Assembly: GCF_004341165.1 (NCBI RefSeq)
Contig: NZ_SLZR01000011.1
Coordinates: 62,001-126,000 of the forward strand
Direction: 5' to 3'
DNA from: Reinekea marinisedimentorum
GTDB taxonomy: Bacteria > Pseudomonadota > Gammaproteobacteria > Pseudomonadales > Natronospirillaceae
Length of the DNA: 64,000 bases
Notes under the pieces: generated by a model
What the model was told of the DNA's origin: nothing
Databases searched by the model: none
Seen by the model: the letters and a program-made list of their open reading frames with translations, nothing else
Position numbers and translations under genes: made by a program
Shown: one piece after another, positions 13,443 through 38,343 of the stretch
Layout: each line of letters starts with the position of its first letter
Position numbering within the stretch: the first letter of the stretch is position 1

Positions 13443-13517
13443 TGGAGCGGGAAAGGAGGCTCGAACTCCCGACCCCAACCTTGGCAAGGTTGTGCTCTAC
13501 CACTGAGCTATTCCCGC
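13443..13517 (-). tRNA. tRNA-Gly (GCC), copy 1
   Basis: A 75-base tRNA with encoded CCA; the acceptor stem starts GCGGGAA and ends TTCCCGC, followed by TCCA. The anticodon loop CTTGCCAA gives anticodon GCC. The T-arm GTTCGAG is intact. It is the second gene of a tRNA-Glu/tRNA-Gly operon and is identical to the copy at 38129-38203. Confidence 0.97.
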
Positions 13518-13581
13518 ATATGAACCAACGCTTTCACTCATTGATTCTGTTCTTTCAGTAAACTCAACCCGAAGGTTGAAG

Positions 13582-13657
13582 TGGCATCCCGTAGGGGACT
13601 CGAACCCCTGTTACCGCCGTGAAAGGGCGGTGTCCTAGGCCACTAGACGAACGGGAC
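13582..13657 (-). tRNA. tRNA-Glu (TTC), copy 1
   Basis: A 76-base tRNA: acceptor start GTCCCGT, anticodon loop CCTTTCAC with anticodon TTC, T-arm GGTTCGAGTCC, encoded GCCA 3' end. It precedes tRNA-Gly by 64 bases on the minus strand; the copy at 38268-38343 is identical. Confidence 0.97.
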
Positions 13658-28698: not shown

Positions 28699-29271
28699 AT
28701 GAACCCAATGAACATTCTTGTAATCGACCAAATTGCTAAACGCGCCGAAACCCTGGAGCAGGCGCTGGTTAAACTTGGCCACAATGTAATGGTTCGCCCT
28801 CCGGGTAAATACGCCATTTACCAGATGGTTGAGTCGTTTCAGCCAGACGTCGTTATTGTTGATGCGGACTCACCCGACCGGGACACACTCGAAGACGTTT
28901 CAGTCACCTCTGACCGCTGCCCCCGGCCCATTATCTTTTTCGCCAACGATGAAGATGACGAGGTTATACGCCAATCCATTCAGGCAGGCGTCAGCGCTTA
29001 TATCGTCGATGGCTTGCAGCCAAACCGGGTTAAGAGCCTGCTCAATGTCGCCATCAGCCGCTTTGAGCAGCATCAGCAGCTGAAAGGCGAGCTGAAGAAA
29101 ACCCGCGATGAACTGGCCGACAGAAAAGTCATCGATAAAGCCAAAGGCCTGCTCATGAAGCACAAAGTGTGTGACGAGGAAGCCGCCTTTGCAGCCATGC
29201 GTAAAATGGCGATGAACAAGAACGTCCGCCTTGCCGAGATTGCGCAAGACGTTATTGATTTATTTGGTTAA
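28699..29271 (+). CDS. nasT: NasT-type ANTAR antiterminator response regulator
   Basis: 190 residues: an N-terminal receiver-like domain (MNILVIDQIAKRAETLEQAL, with the phosphoacceptor region VVIVDADSPD) and a C-terminal ANTAR RNA-binding domain (about 125-188, DRKVIDKAKGLLMKHKVCDEEAAFAAMRKMAM). NasT binds a two-hairpin leader RNA to prevent termination ahead of nitrate assimilation genes. It is followed by nasS, its nitrate-sensing partner. No nitrate or nitrite reductase genes follow, so the target is elsewhere. Confidence 0.92.
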   Translation: MNPMNILVIDQIAKRAETLEQALVKLGHNVMVRPPGKYAIYQMVESFQPDVVIVDADSPDRDTLEDVSVTSDRCPRPIIFFANDEDDEVIRQSIQAGVSAYIVDGLQPNRVKSLLNVAISRFEQHQQLKGELKKTRDELADRKVIDKAKGLLMKHKVCDEEAAFAAMRKMAMNKNVRLAEIAQDVIDLFG

Positions 29272-29289
29272 CGCCCATACGGATTATTT

Positions 29290-30387
29290 ATGCAAAAGAC
29301 TTCAGCCCCTACTCAGCAAACTGTTCGTATCGGCTATGTACCTTTGGTTGACGCAGCACCGCTCATTATCGCCAAAGAAGCCGGCTTCTTTCTGGAAGAA
29401 AATTTAGACATCGTATTGCACCGTGAATCCAATTGGGCAAGCATTCGGGATAAGCTGTCACTCGGCCTGATAGATGCTGCCCATATGCTGGCACCTATGG
29501 TATTTGCCAGCCATATTACTCCGCCCAACAGCCATCATGACAAATCCTTCATGACTGCGATGGCGCTGGGTTATAACGGAAATGCAATCACCCTATCCAA
29601 CCCGCTGTTTGATGAATTAAACGCCGAAGGAAAGAGCCTCGATGAAATCCTTGCAGCGCTGAAAGCCTATGTTGACGCCAGCGAAAGCAAACTGACGTTT
29701 GGCAGTGTGCATCCGTTTTCAATGCATACAAACCTACTGCTACTGCTTTTAAAGCGAGCAGGTATCGATAAAGACAAGATTGAGATTAAGGTTATCCCAC
29801 CGGTGCGCATGGTCGATGCCATACGTGACGGACTGGTTGATCTGTTCTGCGTGGGCGAACCCTGGAACACCGCCGCCCAATTTGAAAAGGCCGGTAAGAT
29901 CATCTGCTATGGCAGCGATCTCTGGAGTCACGCACCAGAAAAAGTATTAGGGCTGAACAGCAAGTTTGCCCGCCAGAACCGAGAAACACACATTAAGGTG
30001 TTAAGAGCGATTGTTCGTGCCTGCCAATGGCTGGAAGAGCCAGACCACATGGCACAGGCCGCACTGTGGCTGGCCAGTAAAAGGTACCTGGACTGCTCAT
30101 CAGACCTGCTTCTGCATGCCATGGTTAATCAGTGGCAAAACCAGGCCAATGGCTCAGCCCAGCGGAAAATATTTTTCTCGCAGAATGCCAATGCACCCTG
30201 GCCACAACATGCAAAATGGATCAGTGATGCCATATTCAACCCGCGCAATACCTTTGCAACGGATGGCCAATGGCTGACCCCACCGGATCAGATTTACGAC
30301 TGGGAAATATTCTCGCAAGTGATGACCAGCCTGGGCTTGCCGGTACCCAATACAGATGACTGCCCGGGTACCTTGCCTAAACTGTAA
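29290..30387 (+). CDS. nasS: NasS nitrate-responsive regulator (CmpA/NrtA family)
   Basis: 365 residues, similar to the nitrate-binding periplasmic proteins but with no signal peptide (opening MQKTSAPTQQTVRIGYVPLVDAAPLIIAKE), so it acts in the cytoplasm. NasS sequesters NasT until nitrate or nitrite binds. It lies 18 bases after nasT. It ends 20 bases before the convergent glucosylglycerate operon, with only a weak hairpin (GCAACC/GGTTGC) between. Confidence 0.92.
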   Translation: MQKTSAPTQQTVRIGYVPLVDAAPLIIAKEAGFFLEENLDIVLHRESNWASIRDKLSLGLIDAAHMLAPMVFASHITPPNSHHDKSFMTAMALGYNGNAITLSNPLFDELNAEGKSLDEILAALKAYVDASESKLTFGSVHPFSMHTNLLLLLLKRAGIDKDKIEIKVIPPVRMVDAIRDGLVDLFCVGEPWNTAAQFEKAGKIICYGSDLWSHAPEKVLGLNSKFARQNRETHIKVLRAIVRACQWLEEPDHMAQAALWLASKRYLDCSSDLLLHAMVNQWQNQANGSAQRKIFFSQNANAPWPQHAKWISDAIFNPRNTFATDGQWLTPPDQIYDWEIFSQVMTSLGLPVPNTDDCPGTLPKL

Positions 30388-30407
30388 TTAAAACGGGTCA
30401 GGCAACC

Positions 30408-32168
30408 TTACTGGTTGCTTAACCAAACTGTCTGATACGGGTTCAGCGCAATCTCGCTGGAGATATCGCTAACCGGGCTTTCACTGAGCAGGTCTACCCA
30501 ACTGTTCATGCTGATCAGGTTGAGCTCGCTCAAGCGCAGAGTTGCCGGCTCACAGGAAATATTACTGACGCAGAAGATGCTCTGCTTCCTATCAATACTC
30601 TGCCGCCATATTCCGAACAGCCCATCACCCAATTGCAGCGTAAACTGAGTCGCATTCGGGTGAAAGGCTTTCTGGCCCTTACGGATAGTCAACAGCTCGT
30701 TCAACCGCTTATAAACCCGGGAGTGATGCGAGCTATCATTGGTCAGCTCTTTCTGCAGCTCTGCCAGATCCCAACGGTGCCGGTTAATGTGACGATTGTG
30801 CTTGGTATTTTCCAGTCGCGCGTAATCGTTTTGCGTTCCCAGCATACTGTGAATATAAACACCCGGAATGCCCTCCAGAGAGAACATAATCTCGTGGGCA
30901 CAAATGAAACGGTCAAAATTCCATTTATCAGGCCCGTCGTGCGTCCCCTGTAAGGCATCGTACAGCGCAATATTAATTTCATAGGGCTTTGATGAACCGT
31001 CATCCATGGTGCGCATCGATACCCGCCCACCGAAGTTCATCATGGTATTGACCAGTGAGTTGATCTCTTTTTCACTCAACAACCCTTCGGCCGGGCGCAA
31101 GCCAATGCCATCATGCGATGCGATGAAATTAAAGTAAGCCGTACCGTCCTGACAAGGAGGCATACTCATCAACCACTGTTTCAGATAAGTACAGTCACCA
31201 CTGATCAGGGTATTGACCAGCAAAGGTGGCAACGAAAAGTTATACACGCAGTGTGCTTCGTTAGCGTTACCGAAGTAAGTCAGGTTTTCCTGGTTAGGAA
31301 TATTGGTTTCCGTAATGATGACGCAATCCGGGCAGCTGTGCTCAATCAGCGTTCTCAGCAGACGAATAACCTCATGCGTTTGAGGAAGGTTGATGCAGGA
31401 AGTGCCGTCTTCCTTCCATAAAAAAGCAACGGCATCGAGACGGAAAATACGAACACCCTCGTCCAGATAAAGGCGGATAATTTTCACAAACTCCAGAAGC
31501 ACGTCGGTATTTGAAAAGTCAAAGTCGACCTGATCATGGCTGAAGGTACACCAGACATGCTTAAGGCCATCCTGCGTTTCGGTTTCCCGCAGCAGTGGCG
31601 ATGTACGGGGGCGAACACACTGGCTGTGATCGATGGAGGGATCCGATGTTTTAAAATATTTATTACCCGGCGCTTCATTTTTCACAAACTGATCAAACCA
31701 AATACTTCGGCTCGAGCAGTGGTTAATCACCAGATCAGACATTAACCTAAAGTCATAAGCAATGGCGTTTATATCGCGCCAGTCACCCAGCGCTTCATTC
31801 ACCTCGGAATAGTTTATAACGGCAAAACCATCGTCTGAACTGTAGGGATAAAACGGCAGAATATGAACGGAGTTGAAAGACTCCTTTAACGGGCCGGAAA
31901 GGAACTTATGCAGCGTTTTAAGCGGCGGCTCAGTAACCTTTTGACCCTCTTTCAATTCAATACTGTCACCATAGGTAATTAATACTGAGTCCTGTTCGCT
32001 CCAGTGGTTGGTGAAGGGGATGGGATCGTTAGCAAACTCATTCAGGCGCATTTCTGCCAACAAATCATTCGCAATATCTTCAATGCTTTTTCCAAGATCA
32101 ATGTCTTTATAAATCACATCAAGGTGGCGATGAACCGTCGCCTTCAGTTTTTCAACCACTTCACTCAT
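30408..32168 (-). CDS. glucosylglycerate phosphorylase-like (GH13_18 sucrose phosphorylase family)
   Basis: 586 residues, a GH13 (alpha/beta)8 glucosyl phosphorylase. Nucleophile Asp245 in RIFRLDAVAFLW, acid/base Glu287 in IITETNIPN, and the transition-state Asp in FIASHDGIG (about residue 350). The family holds sucrose, sucrose-6-phosphate and glucosylglycerate phosphorylases; E. coli YcjM (559 residues) is the glucosylglycerate enzyme. Its position as last gene of an operon with GpgS, GpgP and a glycerate kinase makes glucosylglycerate + phosphate to glucose-1-phosphate + glycerate the likely reaction. Family secure, substrate inferred from context. Confidence 0.85.
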   Translation of the reverse strand: MSEVVEKLKATVHRHLDVIYKDIDLGKSIEDIANDLLAEMRLNEFANDPIPFTNHWSEQDSVLITYGDSIELKEGQKVTEPPLKTLHKFLSGPLKESFNSVHILPFYPYSSDDGFAVINYSEVNEALGDWRDINAIAYDFRLMSDLVINHCSSRSIWFDQFVKNEAPGNKYFKTSDPSIDHSQCVRPRTSPLLRETETQDGLKHVWCTFSHDQVDFDFSNTDVLLEFVKIIRLYLDEGVRIFRLDAVAFLWKEDGTSCINLPQTHEVIRLLRTLIEHSCPDCVIITETNIPNQENLTYFGNANEAHCVYNFSLPPLLVNTLISGDCTYLKQWLMSMPPCQDGTAYFNFIASHDGIGLRPAEGLLSEKEINSLVNTMMNFGGRVSMRTMDDGSSKPYEINIALYDALQGTHDGPDKWNFDRFICAHEIMFSLEGIPGVYIHSMLGTQNDYARLENTKHNRHINRHRWDLAELQKELTNDSSHHSRVYKRLNELLTIRKGQKAFHPNATQFTLQLGDGLFGIWRQSIDRKQSIFCVSNISCEPATLRLSELNLISMNSWVDLLSESPVSDISSEIALNPYQTVWLSNQ

Positions 32169-32183
32169 AGCAACACCTTCGGC

Positions 32184-33413
32184 TTATTTACTTTCCAAAA
32201 ATTCTTTTCGATCTTCTTCCACGGCCGTTATTAACCGATCGTAAACATCCGGCATTGCACTGACAACCCGGTTCCAGCTCGGTATAAACGGGCGCTCCAT
32301 TGGCGCTTCAAGAAAGCGCTGACCTGCCGTCATAATATTCTGGGCAAACATTTCAATGGCTTTTTCTTCCTGGTGAATATCCAGTGTCAGGCCATTCATC
32401 TTGGCATCGTTGTTATAGGTTTCAACGAAATCCAGTGCAATACGGTAGTAGGTCGCCTTCAGCGAACGGAAGGTTTCAGTCGTAAAGGTCTGACCATAGG
32501 TGGCCAGTTTACGGAACATCGCCTTGGTGATATCGATCGACATTTTCGACAGACCACCCTCGGTATTGTCGAAGCTTAGGTCCTGATGCTTATGATCGTA
32601 CGTTTCTGCAATGTCTGCCTGACACAAGCGGTTGTTCGCGTAATTACGGTACATCTCAGAAAGCACACCGATCTCCAGGCCCCAGTCACTCGGGATACGA
32701 ATATCAGTCAACACATCTTTGCGGAAAGAAAATTCCCCGGCCAATGGATAGCGGAAGCTGTCCATAAACTCCAGGTACTCGTTTTCGCCAACTGTACGCT
32801 TAAGCGCACGTATCAAAGGCGTCACCAGCAAGCGGGAAACCCGGCCGTTCATCTTGCCATTGGCTACCCGGGCGTAATAGCCCTTACAGAATTCATAATT
32901 AAACTGCGGGTGCGCCACCGGGTACAGCAGCCGCGCCAGCAAACCTCGGTCGTACGTTACGATATCGCAATCGTGCAGACCAATGGATTCAGATTTGCCG
33001 CTGGCAAGTATATAGCCCATGCAATACCAGACATTGCGCCCCTTACCCAGCTCTCTCGGCGAAACGCCCAGCTCACTCAGTTCTTTATCGAGCGCCTGCA
33101 AACGCGGGCCTTCATTCCAGAGAATTCTGTGGTGCTGTGGCAACTCGGAGAAAAACTCACAGGCATGGAAGTACTGATCCCGATCGGCGCGGTCCAGGCC
33201 GATAACAATCTCTGAAAGATAGGGTACTTCTTTAAGCTGCTTCACGATTGCCGGCAGCGCTTCGCCCTGAAGTTCGGAATAGAGGGACGGAAGAATCAGG
33301 CCCAGCGGGCGAAAGCGGGAAAAGTGTTCAAGATCGTACTCAAGCTCTTCAACGCTGCGATTAGAAAGATTGTGAAGTGTCGTAACGATACCGTTTTGAT
33401 GAAAATCAGCCAT
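32184..33413 (-). CDS. gpgS: glucosyl-3-phosphoglycerate synthase (GT81)
   Basis: 409 residues. Transfers glucose from a nucleotide donor to 3-phosphoglycerate to make glucosyl-3-phosphoglycerate. GT-A features: EIVIGLDRA, GKGRNVWYCMGYIL, and the metal-binding HDCDIVTYD (about residues 148-156). The GpgS-like lower domain EFCKGYYAR, GRVSRLL, DSFRYPLAGEFSFRK and DWGLEIG is present. The gap to the phosphatase gene upstream is 15 bases and the gap to the phosphorylase downstream is 15 bases, so this is one operon. Confidence 0.92.
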   Translation of the reverse strand: MADFHQNGIVTTLHNLSNRSVEELEYDLEHFSRFRPLGLILPSLYSELQGEALPAIVKQLKEVPYLSEIVIGLDRADRDQYFHACEFFSELPQHHRILWNEGPRLQALDKELSELGVSPRELGKGRNVWYCMGYILASGKSESIGLHDCDIVTYDRGLLARLLYPVAHPQFNYEFCKGYYARVANGKMNGRVSRLLVTPLIRALKRTVGENEYLEFMDSFRYPLAGEFSFRKDVLTDIRIPSDWGLEIGVLSEMYRNYANNRLCQADIAETYDHKHQDLSFDNTEGGLSKMSIDITKAMFRKLATYGQTFTTETFRSLKATYYRIALDFVETYNNDAKMNGLTLDIHQEEKAIEMFAQNIMTAGQRFLEAPMERPFIPSWNRVVSAMPDVYDRLITAVEEDRKEFLESK

Positions 33414-33428
33414 GTCGGTCCTCGATTA

Positions 33429-34259
33429 TTATTTAGATTCTTTAGGAGATGAATTCAATATTTTAGTTATAGCTTCAGCCCAGCCCTCCGGGCCGTATTT
33501 TTCTGTGCGATACAATGATGTTTTTTCAAGTTCAGGGAATTCGTGGGCAGGTGATCTTATTTGCACCGCTATATCTGCCTTTAACTGCATAGCGATGTCA
33601 TTTTCGCCATCACCCAGGGCGATACTTTCAAGATCAGAAACCTCCAGAAACTCGGAAAGATAGTTGTTCAGCCAAACCAGCGCAGCGCCCTTATCTGAAT
33701 TTTTTAACAGATGGACAAACCGACCGCCTTTAACAACCTGCACACCTTTTTGTGCGCAAATATCGCTGAGTGTCTGCAGTTGCTCATCACTGCCCAACCA
33801 TTGCAGCGGGTTACTGTATTCGCGCTTCAGCGCCCGCTCCGCTGCAGGCAATGACAAAGAGGTCATGTCAGCCAGTTGTTGGGCACTCATCTGGTTCATG
33901 GCAACGAAGGCACCGGAAAGCGCTTTTTCAAGCTCCACAACCAACGCGTTCCAGAAATCAATAGCCGGTGCAAAAGACTTCACCCGATAACCATCCACCT
34001 GCGGCAATTCACTGCAGGCTTCTTCGGTACAAAAGACTTTTGGGATAAAGATGGCCGCTCCATTTTCCACGATAAAGGGTGCATTAAGCTTTAACTCATG
34101 ACATAGCGGCTCTATTTCTGCCCGGGTTTTACTGGTCACCGGAACGACCGGAATACCGCTTTCATTAAGGCGTTCCAGCGCCGGCAAAGCGGCCTGATAA
34201 GAGTAGTTGTCGTGATCAAGAAGCGTGCCGTCGAGATCGGTGTAAACCACATAACTCAT
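33429..34259 (-). CDS. gpgP: glucosyl/mannosyl-3-phosphoglycerate phosphatase (HAD-IIB)
   Basis: 276 residues with all HAD motifs: YTDLDGTLLDHD (catalytic Asp pair at residues 8 and 10), PVTSKTRAE (motif II Thr/Ser), the lysine-bearing region and GDGENDIAMQLKAD (motif IV, about 226-239). The mannosyl-3-phosphoglycerate phosphatase family covers both sugars; pairing with a GpgS makes glucosyl-3-phosphoglycerate the likely substrate. It overlaps the glycerate kinase stop by 4 bases (ATGA). Confidence 0.88.
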   Translation of the reverse strand: MSYVVYTDLDGTLLDHDNYSYQAALPALERLNESGIPVVPVTSKTRAEIEPLCHELKLNAPFIVENGAAIFIPKVFCTEEACSELPQVDGYRVKSFAPAIDFWNALVVELEKALSGAFVAMNQMSAQQLADMTSLSLPAAERALKREYSNPLQWLGSDEQLQTLSDICAQKGVQVVKGGRFVHLLKNSDKGAALVWLNNYLSEFLEVSDLESIALGDGENDIAMQLKADIAVQIRSPAHEFPELEKTSLYRTEKYGPEGWAEAITKILNSSPKESK

Positions 34260-35164
34260 CGTGCTACCTCGTTGGTAATGACCTGTTGAACCTGCCGCTG
34301 ATCATTCAACAGGAAGAGATCATCTGTTTTTTCCGGCAGCACTGAAAAGCAACTCACCGTAATGCGCTCGTAGTGCTGAATAAAACGCTCCACTTCTGCA
34401 TCCGTCATAACGCCCTCCATACTGCCGCCCTGCGCCATAACGCGGGTACGCAACTTTTGCTCCTGCTCACTGCGCCAGCCCTTGACCGTATGAAAGCCGG
34501 GTGCTTTAAGCATCACTATTCTATCCAACAATGAAAAAACGGCCTGATAATCCTCAGCCAATACTTTGTTTGAATAGCTGCGCCAGGCGGCATCGGCATC
34601 TTCTGTTTTTTCAAGATCGTTTACCGGTGTGACAAGCTCGCTTTCAGACTGCGGACCCGCTCCCACACACCAGCCCTCAAATAGCACAACCTGAACCCGC
34701 TGCTCCTCAACCGGCCACTGGCTTTCCGGCAGCGGATCATCAATGGCTTTGTTAAAAGACGGAATCGGCGTAGGAAGCAAGCCATTCTTAAGGCGTTGCA
34801 GGGTATCCAGCATCAAGCCGACATTGTGGGTTCCCGGAACACCACGCGTTTTAAACAGCGGGTGGACCTTTTGCGATAAGTTTAGACGTTCCTGTTTCGA
34901 TAGGTAGAAATCATCAATGGAAAGACCAATCGCAGGGCATTGAAATTGCTGGGATAGCACATCAACCAGCAGGTCAGTCAGGGTCGATTTACCGGATCCC
35001 TGACAACCATTGATCCCGACGACGATGGGTTGAGTCGATGCAAGGGCCTGATCATATATACGTTGCGCTAATGGGAAAAAATACTTATCAGCAACCTGCT
35101 GATAACTTTCGGGAAGAGCGTGTTTTTGTAAAAACGCCTGAAGTAAGGGCTTTTCTATTTTCAC
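34256..35164 (-). CDS. D-glycerate kinase, P-loop (GLYK/YGR205W) type
   Basis: About 302 residues. P-loop GINGCQGSGKSTL followed by LSIDDFYLSKQERL and a VLFEGWCVGAGPQ Walker B-like segment, characteristic of the plant-type D-glycerate 3-kinase family (related to uridine kinase and pantothenate kinase). It would return glycerate released by the phosphorylase to 3-phosphoglycerate. The start is uncertain: GTG at 35164 (AGGT eight bases upstream) fits family length; an in-frame GTG at 35233 would add 23 residues. First gene of the operon; overlaps gpgP by 4 bases. Confidence 0.85.
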   Translation of the reverse strand: MKIEKPLLQAFLQKHALPESYQQVADKYFFPLAQRIYDQALASTQPIVVGINGCQGSGKSTLTDLLVDVLSQQFQCPAIGLSIDDFYLSKQERLNLSQKVHPLFKTRGVPGTHNVGLMLDTLQRLKNGLLPTPIPSFNKAIDDPLPESQWPVEEQRVQVVLFEGWCVGAGPQSESELVTPVNDLEKTEDADAAWRSYSNKVLAEDYQAVFSLLDRIVMLKAPGFHTVKGWRSEQEQKLRTRVMAQGGSMEGVMTDAEVERFIQHYERITVSCFSVLPEKTDDLFLLNDQRQVQQVITNEVAR

Positions 35165-35318
35165 ATGAGCTACCTGAAAAGATTCACAGTGTATTTTGCA
35201 TAATGCATACCAGTCTAATGGTAGCTCAAACACCCAAAACGGGTCATAAAGGCGAAATTAACGCCCTACAATTACACTCTCGAATCTTTTCCGCCCTAAA
35301 ACTGCACACTTACTCAGT

Positions 35319-35501
35319 TCAGGCTGGCTCCAGCTCGCTTTTTTCAAGGTAAGCGCCAATCGCGTCTATATCCATACCCGTTTCAGGAAATGGCAGACAA
35401 ACCCGATCAACCGGCAAATTTACGCTTTGACTATAAGCCCTTATAGGTTCGCGATTTTCGAACTGTTCATTTGGCGATGCATGGTCCACTCCGACAGTCA
35501 T
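35319..35501 (-). CDS. small hypothetical protein (60 aa)
   Basis: ATG at 35501 preceded by GGAG eight bases upstream; an in-frame GTG at 35513 is weaker. The product is acidic, without membrane segment or signal peptide, and ends DAIGAYLEKSELEPA. It is 154 bases upstream of the glycerate kinase gene on the same strand and could be a leader gene of that operon. I do not recognise a family. Confidence 0.45.
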   Translation of the reverse strand: MTVGVDHASPNEQFENREPIRAYSQSVNLPVDRVCLPFPETGMDIDAIGAYLEKSELEPA

Positions 35502-35752
35502 AATCTGCTCCACTATTCTTATTCAGATCGTATTCGCGTCAGAATATTGCCAATTACATACCAATCGCCTGAAAGCCCTATTATACGGGCGCCTTGGCTT
35601 TTTTGGACTGTTTTTCAGCCCGCATAGAAATGCGATTCAAGTCTCAATATGACATTTTTTGTCACAATAGCTGGCATTCCGGGGGCACGCTCCAAATGCA
35701 AGATTGTCAAATTAACATCGATCTTTCGCAGCGTGTTTCTTTATGTAATCAA
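35502..35752. other. intergenic, no gene recognised
   Basis: About 250 bases upstream of the small hypothetical gene. A short dyad TGACA/TGTCA around a T-run at about 35648-35664 is the only structure; no ORF with a ribosome site. Confidence 0.4.
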
Positions 35753-35877
35753 CCATCCGCAGGATGAGCGATGAGAGCGGATGGGTCTGCAACAGAACGC
35801 CCTACACCAAAGAGATGAAGTTTCAATCGGGTTCGATATTCAACAGGCATTAAAAAAGGGCGACAGGCGCCCTTTTT
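35753..35877 (+). ncRNA. candidate small RNA with terminal terminator
   Basis: A perfect 8-bp stem CCATCCGC/GCGGATGG (35753-35760 with 35777-35784) is followed about 70 bases later by the strong hairpin at 35853-35877. No plus-strand gene lies upstream that would need this terminator. The span therefore could be a small structured transcript. No known family is recognised and no strong promoter is visible. Confidence 0.3.
35853..35877. terminator. strong bidirectional terminator
   Basis: Perfect 10-bp stem AAAAAGGGCG/CGCCCTTTTT with loop ACAGG. On the minus strand it would end the WYL regulator transcript, now interrupted by the inserted palindromic element; on the plus strand it would end the candidate small RNA. 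Confidence 0.85.
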
Positions 35878-35887
35878 GAGTTCTTAG

Positions 35888-36043
35888 TGGGCTATGCGTA
35901 AAGTTCGGTCACTAAGGAGCACAGTAGTTCAGTGAAGATCAAGGCGAAAAAACGCAGGAATAGTGGCGCTATTTCAAGTTTTTTCAACGAAGATATTCGC
36001 TGAAATGCGAAGCGAACAGTTACCTAACTTTGCGCATGGCCCA
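35888..36043. mobile_element. 156-bp palindromic MITE-like element
   Basis: Terminal inverted repeats of 26 bases match at 22 positions (starting TGGGCTATGCG and ending GCGCATGGCCCA). Inner arms also pair: AGTTCAGTGAAGATC with GATATTCGCTGAAAT, and GAAAAAAC/GTTTTTTC at the centre. The four bases TTAG occur directly on both flanks (35884-35887 and 36044-36047), as expected for a target duplication. No coding capacity. It lies between the WYL regulator stop and its likely terminator. Confidence 0.6.
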
Positions 36044-36054
36044 TTAGCTACAGC

Positions 36055-36888
36055 TTATTGACGAAGCCAAAGCAAATAATCACCGGCCTGCTCTGACGGC
36101 GTAGCAGAAAGATCCACGTCCCATTGCGACAGCAGGTAATCTTTCAGTGCCACACGGGAGGTCATCTTAAGGATGCCATTGTGCATACCAAACTCCTGCT
36201 CAATGGCTTCTTTATATGGCAGCGCCGGGTGCGGAACCAAAGACAGCTCAACAATTTGGTTCCAGCCAGAATCTGCTTCTTTCAATTCTGTATGGATTGG
36301 CAGCGTCGAAACGCCCTGCACAGCCTTAATACGATTGATGACAAAGTTACTGAAAACGGAATTCGTTCTGTCATACGCCCTGACTGCCCAGCGTGTGCCG
36401 GTGTTTATCAACGCATGAGGAACCAGAGTCACGGTTCTCTCACCTTCGATCTCCGATACATAAGTCACTGTGACTGATTGCTGCTTATGGATTGCCCGGG
36501 TAATCGCGGCCAGCGTTGGAATGTACGGCAGCGGTGTTTGGCAGGGTGCTTCTGTCACTATTTCCGGGAACTTGGGCCCGGAATAGTCATCACCAAAGCC
36601 ATGAGACAGTGCCGTTAAGACCTGAGTGGCGGTGTAAGAAAATAATGGCTTGAAGGAATCCTGAGGGATATAGGATTTAATCCCATAATCATAAACCACA
36701 TTGTCTGGCACCAGCTTTTTATAGAGGGCAATATCACGCGAAGCGGAAGATTCTTTCAAACCAAAACGCTTTTGCAGGTCGCTGCGGTTAGCATGCCCCA
36801 AAAAATACAGTCGAAATTCCAGGTAAAACAATCTCTCCTGCTGCGGCTGAGATTGATCCTGCAATTGTGGTTGAGCTTTATCAGTCAT
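36055..36888 (-). CDS. WYL-domain transcriptional regulator, BrxR/CapW-like
   Basis: 277 residues: N-terminal winged helix-turn-helix (about 19-70, ERLFYLEFRLYFLGHANRSDLQKRFGLKESSASRDIALY), a central WYL domain (about 125-195, with TVTYVSEIEGERTVTLVPHALINTGTRWAVRAYD) and a C-terminal WCX-like region. This domain order and the opening resemble BrxR/CapW, which repress phage-defence operons (BREX, CBASS). No defence genes are adjacent. A promoter with an inverted repeat on its -35 box precedes it, suggesting autorepression. Family level is confident; the BrxR/CapW subfamily is by pattern only. Confidence 0.8.
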   Translation of the reverse strand: MTDKAQPQLQDQSQPQQERLFYLEFRLYFLGHANRSDLQKRFGLKESSASRDIALYKKLVPDNVVYDYGIKSYIPQDSFKPLFSYTATQVLTALSHGFGDDYSGPKFPEIVTEAPCQTPLPYIPTLAAITRAIHKQQSVTVTYVSEIEGERTVTLVPHALINTGTRWAVRAYDRTNSVFSNFVINRIKAVQGVSTLPIHTELKEADSGWNQIVELSLVPHPALPYKEAIEQEFGMHNGILKMTSRVALKDYLLSQWDVDLSATPSEQAGDYLLWLRQ

Positions 36889-38128: not shown

Positions 38129-38203
38129 TGGAGCGGGAAAGGAGGCTCGAACTCCCGACCCCAACCTTGGCAAGGTTGTGCTCTACCACTGAGCTATTCC
38201 CGC
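38129..38203 (-). tRNA. tRNA-Gly (GCC), copy 2
   Basis: Identical in sequence to the copy at 13443-13517 (anticodon GCC, encoded CCA). Downstream of it lie two further copies of its 3' end, each with a terminator. Confidence 0.97.
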
Positions 38204-38267
38204 ATATGAACCAACGCTTTCACTCATTGATTCTGTTCTTTCAGTAAACTCAACCCGAAGGTTAAAG

Positions 38268-38343
38268 TGGCATCCCGTAGGGGACTCGAACCCCTGTTAC
38301 CGCCGTGAAAGGGCGGTGTCCTAGGCCACTAGACGAACGGGAC
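38268..38343 (-). tRNA. tRNA-Glu (TTC), copy 2
   Basis: Identical to 13582-13657 (anticodon TTC, encoded CCA). The 64-base spacer to tRNA-Gly differs from copy 1 at a single base, so the duplication is recent or kept uniform by gene conversion. Confidence 0.97.

Follow-up and report, generated by a model that had tools for sequence, protein, structure and literature searches.

What is made, and under what control, by a gene cluster that appears to encode both the synthesis and the breakdown of one compatible solute? The question is raised by four open reading frames on the minus strand of a 64,000-nucleotide stretch of the Reinekea marinisedimentorum draft genome (4.23 Mb), the whole of which is called the window here. 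The frames lie at 30408-32168 (586 amino acids), 32184-33413 (409 amino acids), 33429-34259 (276 amino acids) and 34256-35233 (325 amino acids). In the order of transcription the predicted products are a D-glycerate 3-kinase-like protein, a mannosyl/glucosyl-3-phosphoglycerate phosphatase, a GpgS-like glycosyltransferase and a GH13_18 phosphorylase. The kinase and phosphatase genes overlap by 4 nucleotides (nt) and the two remaining junctions are gaps of 15 nt, which agrees with an initial annotation of this DNA that had described four minus-strand genes overlapping or 15 bases apart. Its four family assignments were likewise upheld by matches to profiles and to relatives of solved structure. 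The four genes appear to form one transcription unit, which is likely to make and recycle the anionic compatible solute 2-O-alpha-glucosylglycerate (GGA) and is probably transcribed from a sigma54 promoter. With the kinase start corrected as described below, the operon spans 30408-35164 on the minus strand and has the following features.

30408..32168, minus strand: predicted glucosylglycerate phosphorylase (GGaP-type GH13_18), from GH13_18 relatives, the YcjM alignment and motifs
32184..33413, minus strand: predicted glucosyl-3-phosphoglycerate synthase (GpgS-like), from NCBIfam GpgS_Meth and solved GpgS structures
33429..34259, minus strand: predicted glucosyl/mannosyl-3-phosphoglycerate phosphatase (GpgP/MpgP, HAD-IIB), from TIGR01486 and a solved mannosyl-3-phosphoglycerate phosphatase
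34256..35164, minus strand: predicted D-glycerate 3-kinase (GLYK-like) with a probable GTG start at 35164, from solved D-glycerate 3-kinases; the mechanical reading frame reaches 35233
35197..35212, minus strand: sigma54-type promoter site TGGTATGCATTATGCA, 32 nt before the probable kinase start
35292..35308, minus strand: place of the NtrC-like box of three genus relatives (L097, L099, L101), degenerate and non-significant in the window

In the proposed pathway GpgS would join glucose from a nucleotide sugar to 3-phosphoglycerate and the HAD phosphatase would remove the phosphate to give GGA. The GH13_18 phosphorylase would then convert GGA and phosphate to glucose 1-phosphate and D-glycerate, and the GLYK-type kinase would return D-glycerate to 3-phosphoglycerate. 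By stoichiometry a full turn would cost one ATP plus the re-activation of glucose 1-phosphate, hence metabolite levels or enzyme regulation would have to determine the direction of flux. The initial annotation had suggested that such a closed cycle lets the cell tune the solute in both directions. Each step that it assigned passed the sequence tests; the two-way tuning would additionally need control at the level of enzymes or metabolites, thus after transcription, because the genes for synthesis and breakdown appear to be co-transcribed in one operon. We infer the substrates of the enzymes, the direction of flux and the use of the promoter site by sigma54 from sequence.

The phosphorylase was 38% identical to E. 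coli YcjM over 581 columns (419 bits) and 69-74% identical to the proteins of the nearest named loci, which belong to Reinekea species. Its score against the best solved structure, labelled a sucrose phosphorylase, was 187.5 bits. According to PMC7178133, an (S/T)ETN motif together with a loop-A Glu separates strict glucosylglycerate phosphorylases from sucrose phosphorylases. In the window protein TETN lies at residue 286 and the loop-A Glu falls within YEIN at 396, where two aligned solved relatives have Gln; the RLDA and SHDG catalytic-site motifs are present as well. When the window protein, E. coli YcjM and the proteins of 80 related loci were aligned, (S/T)ETN was present in 82/82 sequences (TETN in 81, SETN in 1) and so was the loop-A Glu. 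Of 299 loci, these 80 were the ones most similar to the window phosphorylase, and the counts show consistency and are not an unbiased survey. The predicted protein carries the strict GGaP fingerprint and we infer GGA as its substrate.

The kinase matched solved D-glycerate 3-kinases (6ckg, E 2.9e-19; 7xpc, E 1.3e-13) and gave no match to Pfam. The phosphatase scored 217.8 bits against TIGR01486, above the cut-off of 164.75, and fell below the cut-offs of narrower equivalog models; its match to a solved mannosyl-3-phosphoglycerate phosphatase had an E value of 2.2e-30. The GpgS-like protein aligned to NCBIfam GpgS_Meth with residues 3-405 on profile positions 2-402 of 402, to PRK13915 GpgS with 63.6 bits (cut-off 262) and to solved GpgS structures with an E value of 1.5e-4. 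Some of these results weigh against a GGA cycle. The GpgS_Meth score of 367.8 bits is well below the cut-off of 700, so it is the family and the gene context from which the product is predicted. Mannosyl-3-phosphoglycerate is a substrate of the phosphatase family too, and the family match would be compatible with either a glucosyl or a mannosyl substrate. In addition, an ectoine synthase is present in the genome, thus GGA need not be the main osmolyte.

Co-occurrence was examined in 57 related genomes, including that of the window, at E values of up to 1e-3 for GpgS, 1e-60 for the phosphorylase and 1e-10 for GLYK. GpgS was found in 35 of the 57 and the phosphorylase in the identical 35. In 11 of these genomes (G008, G009, G012, G015-G021 and G031) the listed coordinates put a long distance between the two genes or assign them to different contigs, so the link appears to be more than shared operon inheritance, though in different-contig cases such as the fragmented G031 the genes may still be close. 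GLYK was present in 25/35 genomes with the phosphorylase versus 2/22 others. The ten phosphorylase-bearing genomes lacking GLYK had a PF02595 glycerate kinase in eight cases and a PF05161 (MOFRL) match in two; in G008 and G015 the PF02595 gene adjoins the phosphorylase gene. Thus a glycerate kinase of one of the three families accompanied the phosphorylase in 35/35 genomes and was found in 9/22 others (Fisher 2e-7, a value that is too small as the genomes are kin). Since the product of PF02595 and MOFRL enzymes is 2-phosphoglycerate, a direct return to 3-phosphoglycerate would need GLYK. In the window's genome the kinase of the operon is the one GLYK and the sole find among the three families, with no match to PF02595 or PF05161. 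The initial annotation had called its phosphorylase substrate an inference, and that proposal is strengthened by the GGaP fingerprint, by the co-occurrence with GpgS in 35/35 genomes and by a glycerate kinase in all 35.

All four genes were present on one strand with short gaps in 65 of the 80 loci. The remainder comprised 13 loci without a detected GLYK (in two of which, L052 and L067, the sequence stops shortly upstream, so that they give no information on GLYK), one with GLYK and phosphorylase only, and one cut by a contig end after GpgS and phosphorylase. In 80/80 loci the detected genes shared one strand and one order and had short gaps between them, and the four-gene arrangement exceeds chance. 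Beyond the four genes, the next commonest neighbouring family occurred in 27 of 81 loci. Kinase and phosphatase were fused in one reading frame of 577-594 amino acids in at least 8/80 loci (L019, L036, L046, L050, L056, L063, L074 and L077), six of the eight being named Pseudoalteromonas. Two of these single-frame fusions have the following coordinates.

L019, 6980-8713: kinase-phosphatase fusion
L036, 7030-8772: kinase-phosphatase fusion

Long frames of 588-672 amino acids around the GLYK match in G025, G031, G036 and G043 are possible further fusions. The locus with GLYK and GGaP only is L022 (7786-10454), from a Thalassotalea metagenome-assembled genome; neither GpgS nor the phosphatase was detected on its 19.8-kb contig and it is possibly a GGA-consuming version of the operon.

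Locus L022 bears on the possibility that the window's operon mainly scavenges external glucosylglycerate, for instance from cyanobacteria, and that its synthase is rarely used. An exchange of GGA between Alteromonas and Prochlorococcus has been proposed (PMC11631117) and L022 would suit a consumer, although it is 1/80 loci and a short whole contig, and the other genes are possibly elsewhere. However, 78/80 loci have the phosphatase, GpgS and GGaP genes side by side in the same orientation. Moreover, no permease gene was seen beside the window's operon among the neighbours scanned, the one neighbour of substrate-binding type being read as a NasS-like sensor. Scavenging as the main role is therefore improbable. 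An equally improbable reading has the phosphorylase running in reverse, so that glucose 1-phosphate and glycerate are combined to GGA and a second route of synthesis exists next to that of GpgS. In favour of it are the reversibility of the reaction and a Km of GGaPs for D-glycerate of 1-5 mM (PMC11009771). The adjacent kinase, however, would drain glycerate. Cells normally contain more free phosphate than glucose 1-phosphate, which also counts against this direction.

Least probable of all is a phosphorylase that acts on sucrose or another disaccharide in an incidental neighbourhood. The nearest NCBIfam model is indeed sucrose phosphorylase, but the score of 209.5 bits misses its cut-off of 334.4, GGaP-specific motifs are present and the gene accompanies GpgS in every one of the 35 genomes. 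The synthesis and recycling of GGA by one operon remains the preferred reading.

The make-and-recycle gene set is already known from other bacteria and the cycle is in print as a concept. As in the window, GGaP genes often occur with genes for glycerate kinase, GpgS or GpgP (Franceus et al. 2017, via PMC7178133), while the summary of these clusters in PMC7178133 makes no mention of a sigma54 promoter, a kinase-phosphatase fusion or the replacement of one kinase family by another, all of which are features or predicted features of the present loci. An operon in Prochlorococcus NATL2A, as described in PMC11631117, also combines GGA synthesis with recycling to glucose 1-phosphate and 3-phosphoglycerate. 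It differs in belonging to a cyanobacterium and in having a putative transporter gene that is part of the operon or adjoins it; none was seen at the operon of the window. The E. coli enzyme to which the window protein was aligned, YcjM, is annotated as a glucosylglycerate phosphorylase, and an E. coli glucosylglycerate phosphorylase is characterised (PMC11009771). Unlike the window, the 19-kb stretch around ycjM has an ABC transporter, sugar dehydrogenases and a kojibiose phosphorylase, and no GpgS, glycerate kinase or phosphatase of this family is annotated in it. GGaP has been proposed as a regulator of the GGA level, and its cellular metabolic function is described as not confirmed by experiment (both PMC7178133). 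The sigma54-type site, the exact co-occurrence with GpgS and the presence of a glycerate kinase in each of the phosphorylase-bearing genomes would make that function concretely testable in culturable marine bacteria.

To study the control of the operon, the sequences preceding the kinase gene were aligned for the window and four genomes of the same genus. The alignment contained one clearly conserved block before the start, TGGTATGCATTATGCA at 35212-35197 in the window. The sigma54 promoter consensus is TGGCAC, 5-7 nt, TTGCT (PMC12316311). The block retains TGG, the A and TGCA, has its GG and GC at a spacing of 10 nt, and is off at three positions, thus scoring 9 of 12 sigma54 positions. A search pattern, TGGYAYRNNNNDTGCW, was written after the sites were known, and its fit to those sites is by construction. 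Its single match in the window is unremarkable, as 0.63 was expected and 47/100 shuffles had at least one match. Across stretches of sequence from seven genus genomes (184 kb) it gave seven matches, one in each and all at this operon, and in all seven the leading gene of the operon has its next start codon 31-36 nt after the match. This codon is the kinase GTG in five. G004 and G006 keep the site although their operon has no kinase gene, and there it lies 34 nt before a phosphatase TTG; that start was chosen by the analyst, as the mechanical phosphatase frame begins within the site. At 112 other gene starts in the same stretches, many of them the same genes in different genomes, no match was found within 110 nt upstream or on either side. 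The 150 nt above the site were 50-66% identical between genomes (gapped), except for the pair L100/L102 at 95%. The evidence for a promoter here is carried by the position of the predicted site and not by the rarity of the pattern.

The same site decides the probable start of the kinase. The initial annotation had placed the genes at 30408..35233, and the placement of the genes stands; the kinase start at 35233 was rejected, being upstream of the conserved site and unmatched in relatives. In L097, L098, L099 and L101 an in-frame kinase GTG follows the site by 31-36 nt, and because of this, and because 35233 sits upstream of the site, the kinase probably starts at the GTG at 35164.

Several results weigh against a sigma54 promoter. 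Shuffles of single regions gave weak values (window 0.08, L097 0.29, L098 0.16, L099 0.07, L101 0.01) and genome-wide the pattern had 19 matches versus 15 for a reversed control. The presumed glnK promoter site of the same genome does not match TGGYAYRNNNNDTGCW. A good site, scoring 9 or more, was found in 11/71 rows, duplicates included, and most other marine relatives are without one. L097, L100 and L101 are presumably the same DNA as L003, L004 and L002. L005 also carries a sigma54-type site; outside the genus and L005, a search of the other marine relatives gave no consistent pair of sigma54-type and NtrC-type sites. Given the constant position within the genus, transcription of the operon from a sigma54 promoter is nevertheless probable. 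Control by sigma70 was unsupported, as a scan of 30380-36100 found no sigma70-type site above the operon. A TATAAT seen by eye at about 35585-35580 had no good -35 partner by eye.

Promoters of the sigma54 type frequently drive nitrogen-responsive genes, and one here would suit a nitrogen switch. NtrC is encoded in the window's genome (762.6 bits, cut-off 558.6). The genome also has a P-II gene with a sigma54-like site, TGGCATAGCCTTCGCT, and, 99 nt above that site, a dyad box, CGCACTTAAAGTGTGCG; the frame after the P-II gene looks by eye like AmtB. A second box above the P-II gene and two above a frame reading as ntrB bring the number of boxes to four; two were picked by eye and none comes from the glucosylglycerate operon. 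Above the ntrB-like frame no sigma54-like site was found. With a matrix made from the four boxes, the 220 nt preceding the operon's sigma54-type site were scanned in eight genomes. The best NtrC-like boxes had p values of 0.002 at 100 nt above the site in L097, 0.002 at 96 nt in L099, 0.004 at 98 nt in L101, 0.008 and 0.006 at 56 nt in L100 and L102, and 0.032 at 86 nt in L005. Thus 6/8 genomes had boxes at p 0.002-0.032, and the combined p without L102 was 2.5e-7, for genomes that are kin. Matrix scores of 10 or more occurred in 6/8 operon regions versus 2/112 control regions.

These figures have to be set against others that speak against NtrC. The best box anywhere in the 220 nt was non-significant in the window and L098 (p 0.25 each), and a simpler box count gave p values of 0.67 in the window, 0.31 in L098 and 0.34 in L005. 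Near-perfect NtrC-type boxes were also present in 12/61 other loci, mostly without a good sigma54 site, so that an NtrC-like box alone is not specific. For the relatives, predicted NtrC control has support; for the window it is unproven.

GGA reportedly accumulates in response to salt and to nitrogen limitation, and in other organisms it reportedly takes the place of glutamate when nitrogen is limiting (PMC11009771). A sigma54/NtrC switch would fit this behaviour. Literature searches for glucosylglycerate with NtrC or RpoN found no statement of sigma54/NtrC control of GGA genes, though one may exist elsewhere; in PMC3662644 and PMC3870243, glucosylglycerate occurs in the reference list only. 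Whether the operon is induced by nitrogen limitation through NtrC is evenly balanced. We put forward somewhat more tentatively that in this genus the whole glucosylglycerate cycle may be a nitrogen-economy module under sigma54/NtrC control, its synthesis and recycling arms being induced together under nitrogen shortage. Glutamate would then be replaced by a nitrogen-free anion, the carbon of which could be recovered as glucose 1-phosphate and 3-phosphoglycerate, and the choice of osmolyte would be tied to nitrogen status in marine heterotrophs.

Other genes near the operon were also noted. An ANTAR response regulator and an NMT1_2-family protein, which we take to be a NasT/NasS-like pair, are encoded at 28699-30387, convergent with the operon. 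The pair is probably an incidental neighbour and not a regular partner of the operon, as the NasS-like gene adjoins it in 3/7 genus genomes (the window, G003 and G005). The gene at 36055-36888, which lies upstream in the same orientation as the operon, encodes a WYL-domain protein, a possible regulator, and is beside the operon in 5/7 genus genomes. Between it and the operon is an open frame of 60 amino acids (35319-35501, minus strand) with a C-terminal LPFPE motif. Resembling frames are present in L097 and L101, and a search for the motif found none in L098, L099, L100 or L005. Rfam gave four tRNA matches in the window and one match far below the gathering score in 35100-36100, thus no known leader RNA. 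A tRNA-Gly/tRNA-Glu pair occurs twice in the window, at 13443-13657 and 38129-38343, the two copies being identical at 214/215 bases.

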